Shown: piece by piece, positions 38,348 to 45,828 of the stretch
Position numbering within the stretch: position 1 is the stretch's first letter
Layout: every line of letters starts with the position of its first letter
NCBI RefSeq assembly: GCF_002287505.1
Contig: NZ_CP019688.1
Location: 1,352,674 to 1,416,673 of the forward strand
Reading direction: 5' to 3'
DNA length: 64,000 nt
Source of the DNA: Corynebacterium glaucum
Lineage (GTDB): Bacteria > Actinomycetota > Actinomycetes > Mycobacteriales > Mycobacteriaceae
Translations under genes and position numbers: made by a program
Notes under the pieces: generated by a model
Databases searched by the model: none
The model's input: only the letters and a program-made list of their open reading frames with translations
What the model was told of the DNA's origin: nothing

Positions 38348-39195
38348 TTAATCACCGCGCCGACCTGCAATCTTCACGTGTTTCCGCAGCTCAGCAGCAT
38401 CTGGACCAAACCGCAGAATCGAGCGCGAAACACTGGGAAATACCAGCACCGGATCAATCCCAGCCACTCGTTCCGCATCCTCGTAGGTCGCACCCTGCGC
38501 CCCCACCCCAGGCATCAGCACACACCCATTCAGGTACTCAAGGACAGGAGGCTTGACGACGGTTGCGCCCACCACAACACCGACATCCCCCACTCCATCC
38601 GCAGCACCTTCGGTGCCGGGGTTGTTTGCGTCGTGGTTGTAGGCCGCGCACTCGTCGACCATGAACTGCGCCACCGTGACCTCGCCGTCACCGACGCCCA
38701 GTGACGCAGCCTGAAAGGCCTCCGCCTCCGGGTTGGAGTTCGCCGCCATGACAAACACGCCCTTGCCGTGCGCCTGCGCCAGCTCGATCGCCGGCGCGAG
38801 GGAACCCACGCCCAGGTAAGGAGTGAGCGTCACCGCGTCCGCCTCGAGTGGCGAGCCGGGTTCCAGCCACGCGGACGCGTAGCCGGCCATCGTGGAGCCA
38901 ATGTCGCCGCGCTTCGCGTCCGCGATCACCAACGTCCCAGTCTCCCGCAGCCCCGCAAGCGCCTCTTCGAGCACCGCGAACCCACGGGAGCCGAAGCGCT
39001 CGAAGAACGCCACCTGCGGTTTCACCAGCGCGGCAGCGTCCGCAAACGCTTCCACGCAAGTGAGCGCGAAGGTGCGCAGCCCGTCCGCCGAGTCGGGCAA
39101 CCCCCACTGCTCCAAGAGAGCCGCGTGTGGGTCGATGCCGACGCAGAGTCGGCCCCGTTCACGCCCGGCGTCGACAAGCTTCTGCCCGAACCCCA

Positions 39196-39196
<1 letters not shown>
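38348..39196 (-). CDS. pyrF: orotidine 5'-phosphate decarboxylase (type 2)
   Basis: Last step of UMP synthesis. 282 residues, the longer actinobacterial type, with the catalytic lysine K95 in VIADAKRGDIGST and GVDP-like VGIDPHAALL near the start. Its GTG overlaps the carB stop by one base (TAGTG), so it is the last gene of the pyr operon. Confidence 0.96.
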
Positions 39197-42549
<3,353 letters not shown>

Positions 42550-43002
42550 TTACTTGGCCTCCTCGCTGGCTTCGACGGTGATGGTGGCCTGCTGCGGGCC
42601 GGTCTTGGACAGGTGGCGCACGAGCTTGCGGGTGTCCACGCCGCGGATGCCAGTCACGCCCTGGTTTTGCAGCTCGTCTTCCAGCGAGCGCTCCGAGCGG
42701 AAGTTCGACGGGATGCGCGAGACGTCGCGAACTACCACGGCCGCGGCAGTGATGGAACCGTCGCCGGACTCGGCCACGTCCTCGCTGTTCCATCCCACGT
42801 TGCCGATCTGCGGGGTAGCGAAAACGAGGATCTCCCCGCTGCGGGCGGGATCCGTCAGCTCGCGCTGGTAGGCGAACATGTCAGTGGTGAAAGTGCAGTT
42901 GCCCTGGATTGCCTGGGCGGCATCTGGCGCATCACCGAAGAGAAAACCGGGGAAGGTGGCGCCGTCATCAAGCACCAGCTTCGCGTTAACGCGATGAGTC
43001 AT
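42550..43002 (-). CDS. carA: carbamoyl-phosphate synthase small subunit lacking the glutamine amidotransferase domain
   Basis: Only 150 residues, against roughly 380-390 for normal CarA. The N-terminal CarB-interacting domain is present: AKLVLDDGATFPGFLFG, ATPQIGNVGWNSEDV, VVVRDVSRIPSNFRSE and GIRGVDTRKLVRHL. The frame ends in EASEEAK and TAA exactly where the class I amidotransferase domain should begin; the next base is the carB ATG. The catalytic Cys, His and Glu are therefore absent, and no out-of-frame remnant can exist because carB follows at once. The usual MTGYQE motif is altered to DMFAYQRE. ATG at 43002 with AAGGAG at the pyrC end. The enzyme may use free ammonia or a separate glutaminase, or this may be an assembly deletion. 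Confidence 0.85.
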   Translation of the reverse strand: MTHRVNAKLVLDDGATFPGFLFGDAPDAAQAIQGNCTFTTDMFAYQRELTDPARSGEILVFATPQIGNVGWNSEDVAESGDGSITAAAVVVRDVSRIPSNFRSERSLEDELQNQGVTGIRGVDTRKLVRHLSKTGPQQATITVEASEEAK

Positions 43003-43009
43003 TGTGTGG

Positions 43010-44299
43010 TTACTCCTTATCCAGTGCGTACGTTTGGGTGCCGCGCAGCCAGGTGGCCACGACTTTGGCGTTGAAGTCCATGCCTTCGTATGGGGTGTTG
43101 CTCGCCTTCGAGGCCATCGCCTCGCCGCTCGCGGTCCAGGCGTGCTCGGGATCGACCAGAGTGAGGTTGGCAGGCTCCCCGACGGCAATCGGGCGGCCCT
43201 GGTCTTCCAGCTGCATGATCTCTGCGGGTCGCTCGCTCATCACCTTTGCGACGAAGCGCCAGTCGGCAAGACCCGGCTCGACGAAGACTTGGTGCACGAC
43301 CGCAAGCGACGTCTCAAGGCCCAGCATGCCGGGCTTCGCGTGCTCGAACTCCACGCACTTGTCCTCGGAACCGTGCGGGGCGTGGTCGGTGGCGACGACG
43401 TCGATCGTGCCGTCGAGAAGCGCCTCGCGCAGCGCAACCGTGTCGCGGTCCTCGCGCAGCGGCGGATTCACGCGGAAGTTGCCGTCGTAGGTGACCAACT
43501 TCTCGTCGGTAAGCAACAAGTGGTGAGGGGTGACCTCGGCACTTGCCGCAATCCCCTGCTCCTTCGCCCAGCGCAGGAGCTGGACGGTGCCCTCGGTGGA
43601 GGCGTGGCAGAGGTGGTAGCGCCCGCCGTAGTCGCGCGTCATGATCAGGTCGCGGGCGACGATCGACTCTTCGGCAACGCGCGGCCAGCCACGCAGCCCA
43701 AGACGAGCAGCGTTTTCGCCCTCGTGCGCGACTGCGCCGGCGGTCATGCGGTGGTCCTCGGCGTGCTGGGCAAGTACTACATTGTGCGCTTTCGCGTACT
43801 CGATCGCGCGGCGCATGAGCTGCGGATCGTTGACGCACTTGCCGTCGTCGGAGAACATCCGCACGTGGTTGCGCGCGAGAAGCCCGATCTCAGTGAGCTC
43901 CTCGCCCTCGAGCCCCTTGGTGATGGAGCCGACCGGGTAGACGTCGCACTTGCCGTACGTCTGCCCCTTTTCCCACACCGCCTCGGCCAGGAAGGGTTGG
44001 TCGATCACCGGCTGGGTGTTCGCCATGGTGAACACGGCGGTGAATCCGCCCTTCGCCGCGGCGTCCGAGCCGGTGGCGATGGTCTCGGTGTCCTCGCGGC
44101 CCGGCTCGCGCAGGTGCACGTGCATGTCCACCAATCCAGGCAGCAGTACGTGACCTTCGCAGTCGACCACCTCGTCGGCCTCGAACGGGCCGCTGTTGAT
44201 CGCCTCGATAACCCCGGACTCAAGGTCGATGAGCAGGTTCGTCGCATCCTCGCCGTAGGGGCGGACGTTGTTCAGCGCAAGCGTTTTCGGCGTGCTCAC
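43010..44299 (-). CDS. pyrC: dihydroorotase
   Basis: Zinc amidohydrolase closing carbamoyl-aspartate to dihydroorotate, 429 residues. Metal ligands H60 and H62 are in [14 protein letters not shown], with further ligands in LAQHAEDHR and LCHASTEGT and the catalytic aspartate in [11 protein letters not shown] overlaps the pyrB stop (GTGA). Seven bases separate its stop from carA. Confidence 0.96.
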
Positions 44300-45255
44300 A
44301 GCTGCACTCCTTCCTGGCCGTCGCGGCCACTCGCCAACAGGGTGAACAGGACGGCCATGCGGGTGTAGACGCCGTTGGACACCTGGCCAAGCACCACGGC
44401 ATTGTCGCGGTCCGCCACCGCATAGTTAATCTCCATGCCCCGCAGCATCGGCCCCGGGTGCATGATGAGGGCATTTGCTTGAAGACGGTCCGCCCGCTGC
44501 CCCGACAGACCATAAAGCGTCGCGTATTCGCGGTGCGAGGGAAAGAACCCGCCCTGCATACGCTCGGCCTGGACACGCAGCATCATGACGACGTCTGGCT
44601 TAGTACCGGATTCGCCGCCGTCGATTTCCGCGTCGAAGTCGTAGCTCACTGTCGCAGGCCAGTGCTCTACCCCGGTTGGGAGCAGCGTCGGTGGCGCAAC
44701 CAACACGACCTCGGCGCCGAGCGTGGAAAGCAGATCGACGTTGGAGCGGGCCACGCGCGAGTGCAGAATGTCGCCGACGATGAGGACCTTCTTACCGGCT
44801 ACATCCCCGATGTGCTGGCGCATGGTCACCGCGTCCAGCAGCGCCTGGGTGGGGTGCTGGTGCTGACCGTCACCGGCGTTGATGATCGAGGTCTCCGGCA
44901 ACCACTGGGTCAGAAGCTGCGCCGCGCCTGAGGCCGGGTGGCGCATGATGATTGCGTCGGCACCCACCGCCGCCAGCGTCGCGGCGGTGTCTTTGAGCGA
45001 TTCACCCTTCTTCACACTCGACGAAGAAGCCGACACGTTGATCACGTCCGCGCTCATCCACTTACCCGCGGTCTCGAAAGAGGAACGGGTGCGCGTCGAG
45101 TTCTCGTAGAACAGGGTGAAGATGGTGCGCCCGCGCAAGGTCGGGAGCTTCTTGATCTCGCGGCCGTCCAGCGCCTCGCGGAACCGGTCGGCTTCGTCCA
45201 TCAACCCGATGATTTCGTCGCGGGTGAGGTCTCCGATGTCAATGAGGTGTTTCAT
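44296..45255 (-). CDS. pyrB: aspartate carbamoyltransferase catalytic chain
   Basis: Joins carbamoyl phosphate and aspartate. 319 residues with the carbamoyl-phosphate loop [11 protein letters not shown] at 51-61 and the aspartate-domain IMRHP region. ATG immediately after the pyrR stop (TAGATG). No regulatory chain pyrI is nearby, as usual in this group. Confidence 0.96.
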
Positions 45256-45828
45256 CTAGTTCGCCTCCCGGGTCAGGGTCACGCCGTCGGTGCCGTCGAT
45301 AGGCGTCAAGCTCACGGTGACATCCTCCGTCTTCGCGGTAGGGATGTTCTTGCCCACGTAATCGGCGCGGATCGGCAGCTCGCGGTGACCGCGATCGACC
45401 AACACCGCGAGTTGAATGGCTCGCGGGCGACCGATATCGCGAAGCGAATCCAGGGCGGCGCGGATGGTGCGGCCTGAATACAAAACGTCGTCGACCAGAA
45501 TGACCAGCGATCCATCGACCTCGGCCGGGATGTGGGTGGGGCGCAGCGCGCGGTGCGGCTTGTCGCGCAAGTCGTCGCGGTAGAGCGTCACGTCGAGGGA
45601 ACCGACGGGCACCGCCACCCCCGAGAATTCTTCAACCGCTGCAGCGATGCGCTGTGCGAGCGGGACTCCACCTGATGGGATGCCCAGCAGCATCACCCCA
45701 GGCTGGCTGGCCTCACCTGCGTCATCGAGCGCAGTCTTTTCAATGATTTGGTGCGCGATGCGTGCAATCGTGCGCGAAACGTCTTGGGCTGATAACAGCT
45801 CGACCGTTTCGCGTGTGTTTTCACTCAT
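45256..45828 (-). CDS. pyrR: PyrR bifunctional regulator / uracil phosphoribosyltransferase
   Basis: UMP-responsive RNA-binding regulator of the pyr operon with phosphoribosyltransferase fold, 190 residues. The PRPP loop [20 protein letters not shown] is intact. ATG with a strong AAGGAGG. I found no recognisable PyrR anti-antiterminator hairpin or U-tract in the 5' region, so control might act at translation initiation as proposed in mycobacteria. Confidence 0.95.

Follow-up and report, generated by a model that had tools for sequence, protein, structure and literature searches.

A short carA gene without a glutaminase domain points to a natural, probably ammonia-dependent carbamoyl-phosphate synthetase in Corynebacterium

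How does Corynebacterium glaucum supply nitrogen for carbamoyl phosphate, from which pyrimidines and arginine are built, with a CarA subunit that has no glutaminase? The question is raised by a single gene in the stretch of DNA analysed here (the window, 64 kb of genome G000). In the sections of PMC6245113 on which we draw, glutamine is described as the preferred and physiologically relevant donor, a statement extended there to all bacterial carbamoyl-phosphate synthetases (CPSases).

The gene, referred to here as carA-short (42550..43002, minus strand), is an open reading frame of 150 codons plus TAA, joined to carB by a TAAATG junction. Its protein has a sole Pfam domain, CPSase_sm_chain (PF00988), matched over the complete profile (1-126 of 126) at 118.7 bits against a cut-off of 27; the same search gave no match to the glutamine amidotransferase (GATase) domain PF00117. 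Scored against the whole-protein model TIGR01368, it reaches 119.6 bits, below the curated cut-off of 307.35, compared with 443.5 for a full-length relative (L054) and 284 for the species G226, discussed below, which has an apparently dead GATase. The best PDB matches of an AlphaFold2 model (pLDDT 86, pTM 0.82) are E. coli CarA (TM ~0.85 by query length) and human CPS1 (~0.80; 5dot is among the matches), and on this model the kept domain is predicted to fold like the N-terminal domain of CarA. The initial annotation of this DNA had thus correctly described a 150-residue CarA that ends at the domain boundary and runs directly into carB. Its further statement that the missing half has left no remnant holds within the 64 kb window, where a query taken from the CarA of a relative, and limited to its GATase part, gave nothing better than E 1.5; in a control region the counterpart was matched at E 2e-134. 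Near the 13 other short carA genes described below, the same kind of search gave one match with E ≤1; it lies in G099, some 5 kb away from carA, and has E 0.004. A search for a second, full carA elsewhere in the genome, also proposed at the outset, found none: the single contig of 2,518,659 bases contains one PF00988 match.

The surrounding operon is complete. Full-length carB (39196..42549, minus strand), defined from its reading frame, a domain search and alignment, encodes a large subunit of 1117 residues with both CPSase_L_D1/D2 halves, D3 and MGS all present. A ribosome-binding-like site for carB, GAGGAGG (42558..42564, minus strand; recognised by eye), lies inside the 3' end of carA-short, 5 bases before its stop codon and 8 before the carB ATG. 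The neighbours, all on the minus strand, carry names that follow the usual make-up of the pyr operon: pyrC (43010..44299) immediately upstream, preceded by pyrB (44296..45255) and pyrR (45256..45828), and pyrF (38348..39196) downstream, giving a compact run pyrR-pyrB-pyrC-carA-carB-pyrF. Both the intact operon and the carB site within the shortened gene had been noted from the sequence.

Is this one aberrant locus, or a gene type? Comparison of carA lengths, which the initial annotation had called for, shows a short carA adjoining carB in 15 of the 242 Corynebacterium genomes searched, many more than chance would give. These represent 14 species; the window's species is present twice, with identical short CarA proteins. 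PF00988 is matched in 240 of the 242 genomes, and a full-length CarA query matches 223 of them at E 1.5e-154 or better; the other 19 comprise the 15 with short carA, two without carAB (G020 and G106), G226 and G090. Named carriers include C. stercoris, C. riegelii, C. haemomassiliense and the strains HMSC29G08, HMSC05H05, MSK008, MSK041 and Marseille-P4321. Across the 14 species 0 to 23 bases separate the end of carA from the start of carB, and the 13 other short CarA proteins are 48-73% identical to that of the window. Values of dN/dS for short carA are 0.145-0.306 in eight pairs, which places the gene under purifying selection. We conclude that carA-short is a natural gene: an assembly gap and a pseudogene can both be dismissed, since the same gene occurs in 15 of 242 genomes and its dN/dS is ~0.15-0.31; the view that it is not decaying is thereby upheld.

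The type appears to be confined to the genus within the sequences covered, although genes that are more distant, or truncated in another way, may have escaped these scans. A scan of genome contigs found eight Corynebacterium loci and none outside the genus, the three Myxococcota loci that it returned having a full-length CarA frame. Nor did a PF00988 scan of Actinomycetota (346 genomes including that of C. glaucum, 315 matched) reveal a short carA of this kind among the frames listed. Of 23 low scorers chosen from that scan for a closer look, 18 carry the whole domain within a frame at least 353 codons long; in the remaining five (G430, G348, G508, G541 and G293) the domain is matched only in part, in two of them at a contig end. 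In viral contigs 34 pattern matches were obtained and none was confirmed; 54 plasmid records matched, all at less than 60% identity, and these were compared by identity alone.

Other departures were seen within the genus. Both carA and carB are missing from G020 and G106, which have weak ATP-grasp matches only. The carA of G090 (L133:1196-2392) has a frame shift inside its GATase part in one assembly and a low CarA score; this frame change may reflect either an error in sequencing or the onset of loss, and the genome was left out of the short-carA count. In G128 two PF00988 matches of equal score lie ~7 kb apart (G128:C2:1062488 and 1069454), perhaps as a result of carA duplication.

If CarA has lost its glutaminase, has CarB changed with it? 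Compared with the window's protein, CarB of the 13 other short-carA species is 88-93% identical. We aligned CarB from the 14 short-carA species with that of 27 full-carA genomes, which belong to the 223, are mostly those whose CarA scored nearest to the short one, and are not a random draw. At 24 positions the residues of the two groups are disjoint, and all 24 lie in residues 160-352, in the carboxyphosphate domain (41494..42072, minus strand); two more separating columns fall in an insertion that the window's CarB lacks and were dropped. The densest patch, residues 262-282 (41704..41766, minus strand), holds eight of the 24. With 483 variable positions in CarB, 108 of them in residues 100-400, the clustering has a hypergeometric p of 3e-17, a descriptive value only, as the positions are not independent: a single branch may account for most of them. 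Removal of G186, G079 and G116 leaves the count of 24 as it was. Linkage alone was considered as the cause of the clustering and rejected: residues 1-159 of CarB, nearer to carA, hold none of the 24 positions.

Ile269 of the window's CarB, within the dense patch, aligns to E. coli Arg265, reportedly part of the tunnel wall that has been studied by mutation; all 27 normal sequences have Arg at this position and all 14 of the short type have Ile. At the positions of the ammonia gate (232, 251 and 314 in E. coli) all 14 short-type proteins have Ala/Ala/Ala, and the carboxyphosphate-site residues that we checked are unchanged in all 14. In CarA itself, the 14 short proteins are separated from 71 full-length sequences by Phe in place of Thr at position 43, loss of Ser at 53, Gly in place of Arg at 56 and Phe at 61, each in 14 of 14, with the exception that Gly56 is also found in one full-length sequence. 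The full-length set comprises those of 72 loci (71) that gave a frame with the required intact GATase motifs, and several genomes occur in it twice. Position 53 corresponds to the glutamine-contacting Ser47 of E. coli. The gate itself is named by CPS1 numbering in the portion of PMC4655335 cited here. On this residue evidence, the CarB of short-carA species is co-adapted with the short CarA.

A second Corynebacterium lineage seems to have come to the same state by a different route. CarA of G226 (L131:7558-8787) is a 409-codon frame that retains the GATase domain, with GICFGNQ changed to AFGFGAQ and YHPES to FDPTR, so that Cys, His and Glu are all replaced. In its CarB, all seven patch positions that are invariant in the 27 normal proteins are changed (262, 263, 266, 269, 270, 273 and 282), Arg269 to Cys, whereas of the 16 diagnostic positions that lie outside it 13 are of the normal type. 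Its CarA has Asp41, Asn54, Gly56 and Phe61, shared by 12, 2, 14 and 14 of the 14 short proteins respectively. G226 is a distant Corynebacterium, with CarB 75% identical to that of the window, and part of its changes may be plain divergence. Among 70 other CarA loci, intact GATase motifs were seen at once in 59 and in six of the remaining 11 on a second look; the last five, mostly partial, had a first look only. We consider the following, taken as one joint claim, somewhat probable: that, after deletion of the glutaminase, short carA and the ammonia-receiving part of carB evolved together into an ammonia-only module, which recombines as a unit between Corynebacterium species, and that G226 reached the same state by killing the active site of a GATase that it kept.

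The history of the module can be read in part from trees. In a tree of CarB residues 1-400 the 14 short-type sequences form one clade (SH-aLRT 100, stem 0.24), whereas for residues 570 to the end they do not (AU p 1.35e-4), nor do they for pyrR, pyrB, pyrC, pyrF and mihF (AU p 9e-62). These are quick trees made without G226; the group was defined beforehand and the split points were chosen after the DNA comparison. The short-carA genome G186 has flanking genes closest to those of the full-carA genomes G111 and G223, with 86-94% DNA identity to G111 from pyrR to pyrC, while at carA no DNA of the two aligns. In one 500-base bin at the 5' end of carB short-carA genomes are nearer to G186 (84-86% versus 80%), other early bins are about equal between the groups, and further on G111 is nearer. 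These bins are mixed, so that for G186 it is the protein tree, together with carA itself, that carries the weight. Conversely, G079 and G116 have a full carA, yet in the background tree they nest within the short-carA group. Short carA and the 5' part of carB thus appear to have been swapped between species as a block, since the first 400 residues of CarB form one clade and the 3' part and the neighbouring genes do not. The one-clade tree of the 5' part favours one origin over repeated deletion, and the simplest reading is that the short type arose once and that carA and 5' carB were then replaced in both directions. The short gene, on these trees, seems to travel with the ammonia-receiving part of CarB.

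What, then, would such an enzyme do? We think it quite probable that this is a natural glutaminase-less CPSase, in which the GATase has been deleted and CarB takes free NH3 from solvent. With the class I amidotransferase domain gone from CarA, the interaction domain that docks on CarB remains, and CarB would make carboxyphosphate, carbamate and carbamoyl phosphate as usual. Free NH3 would enter at or along the interface between the CarA domain and CarB, replacing the NH3 channelled from glutamine. The kept domain would probably form one wall of this entry path and stabilise the carboxyphosphate domain, and the changed patch of CarB may stand in for contacts to the lost GATase. That NH3 is the physiological nitrogen donor is an inference, as are the way by which it enters and the part played by the domain that was kept. 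The cited parts of PMC6245113 state that the small subunit touches the carboxyphosphate and oligomerisation domains of CarB and that CarB catalyses synthesis from ammonia; the same source counts against ammonia use in stating that E. coli CPSase requires very high, likely non-physiological ammonia. Blocking or perforating the tunnel of the E. coli enzyme leaves its activity on external ammonia normal, according to the sections of PMC4655335 available. A structure prediction of fused CarA and CarB was of low confidence (pLDDT 53.5, pTM 0.39), and we draw nothing from it.

Urease was considered as a common source of the ammonia and rejected: only G145 and G153 were matched among the 15 short-carA genomes, that is, two of the 14 species, against 90 of the 227 genomes without short carA (92 of 242 overall, one below the cut-off).

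A side observation also concerns pyrimidine metabolism in the genus. In 133 of the 242 genomes, C. glaucum included, no match to CTP synthase (PF06418) was obtained (109 match, 107 of them over the cut-off), and there is none in any of the 28 short-carA and comparison genomes. Outside the window, at the syntenic site G000:C1 ~1248645-1248774 (L170), only ~130 bases separate the alignable portions of the genes that in G031 enclose pyrG, and the site contains no runs of N. The GATase may have become dispensable where cells depended less on making pyrimidines de novo: two genomes lack carAB, and no CTP synthase is matched here.

The initial annotation had offered two mechanisms, an ammonia-dependent enzyme or a glutaminase supplied in trans. 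In the latter, a separate protein such as an orphan class I GATase would dock on CarA-short/CarB and keep the enzyme glutamine-dependent, which we regard as unlikely. The search covered the PF00117 family, and gave eight matches in C. glaucum: guaA, a pabA-pabB-type fusion, trpG, hisH, two PRK07567-type genes, purQ and a GatD-like gene. A class I GATase that served all 14 species would have to be among these eight, and the proposal is weakened accordingly, the set being typed to other functions or shared with full-carA relatives. The two PRK07567-type genes are neighbours and lie 53-60 kb from carA (G000:C1:1335054-1342050), although relatives with a full carA also give matches in the same range, of which only the two C. 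glaucum genes were typed. As a GATase that might mark the short-carA group we considered a PRK09065-like gene found in seven of 14 short-carA genomes and none of 14 others among the matches listed (five of the seven were read and three typed, G187 and G154 being counted by score and range only), and rejected it, as it is absent from the matches of C. glaucum and, among those listed at that score, from six other short-carA genomes. The orphan loci of this kind are L160-L164, and in L162 the gene adjoins an apparent trpS. The proposed search for an orphan amidotransferase produced these candidates, the PRK09065-like gene being the best of them. Loss of CarA Ser53 and CarB Arg269 in 14 of 14, and change of the same patches in G226 with its dead GATase, also argue against a glutaminase in trans, and the ammonia-dependent mechanism is the one favoured by these sequences.

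The remaining explanations fare less well. Short CarA could be a relic of an enzyme on its way out, in cells that obtain pyrimidines and arginine from their host; the absence of carAB from two Corynebacterium genomes points this way, and the unmatched CTP synthase in 133 of 242 genomes makes dependence on salvage plausible. We give this only a slim chance: 14 species keep the gene under the constraint measured by dN/dS, in an intact operon and with CarB highly conserved among them, and the block is present in a species, G186, whose neighbouring genes group with full-carA species. Still less probable is that CarA-short has taken on another role, unrelated to the supply of ammonia, such as regulating CarB or helping it to assemble. 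The kept domain is the interaction domain, and in work on mammalian CAD it reportedly modulates the synthetase; such a role carries the same sequence expectations as the ammonia-dependent reading, but in both subunits the changed positions cluster at sites that we place near the route once taken by glutamine and ammonia. An assembly, cloning or sequencing deletion, the main alternative in the initial annotation, can be set aside almost entirely. The second genome of the species has the identical protein, homologous short genes with different junction spacers occur in 13 other species, and the eight named genomes stem from several sequencing projects; with 15 genomes carrying the gene, an artefact was rejected as the cause. 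A natural CarA reduced to its interaction domain, as first suggested, is supported by its presence in 14 species, purifying selection and a co-adapted CarB.

How does the predicted ammonia-dependent enzyme compare with known systems? With E. coli-type CarA/CarB (CPS II) it shares its place in the operon, a complete PF00988 domain and a full CarB with gate and carboxyphosphate-site residues, and differs in that the whole GATase is gone and CarB is altered at the 24 carboxyphosphate-domain positions. Vertebrate CPS1 likewise uses external NH3 (predicted here), keeps an S1-like N-terminal domain and has lost glutaminase function. In the parts of PMC4655335 cited, however, CPS1 is one chain that has an inactive GATase-like S2 domain and needs N-acetylglutamate, whereas here the domain is deleted and CarA-short and CarB are separate subunits. 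A GATase-like domain present but inactive, a feature of CPS I, is thus absent from carA-short; by sequence it fits G226, which resembles the short type in its lost glutaminase residues, its CarB patch and several CarA positions. On the best explanation, CarA-short/CarB would resemble vertebrate CPS1 in what it does but not in how it is built. The carbamate-kinase-like enzyme of Pyrococcus also makes carbamoyl phosphate without a glutaminase, as stated in the part of PMC6022934 consulted, and its use of ammonia is given in the title of a reference in PMC6245113; unlike the present enzyme, it has an amino-acid-kinase fold and neither CarA nor CarB. We found no description of a glutaminase-less CarA in a literature search whose reach left out most subscription papers.

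A CPSase that is conserved, exchanged between species and deleted for a domain would break the rule that all bacterial CPSases use glutamine. If our reading is right, Corynebacterium would show, in natural bacterial enzymes, successive stages by which glutamine-dependent carbamoyl-phosphate synthesis turns into synthesis from ammonia, a change known from vertebrate CPS1. It would also offer a minimal natural enzyme for probing the role of the CarA N-terminal domain, the entry of NH3 and the switch of amidotransferases from glutamine to ammonia.
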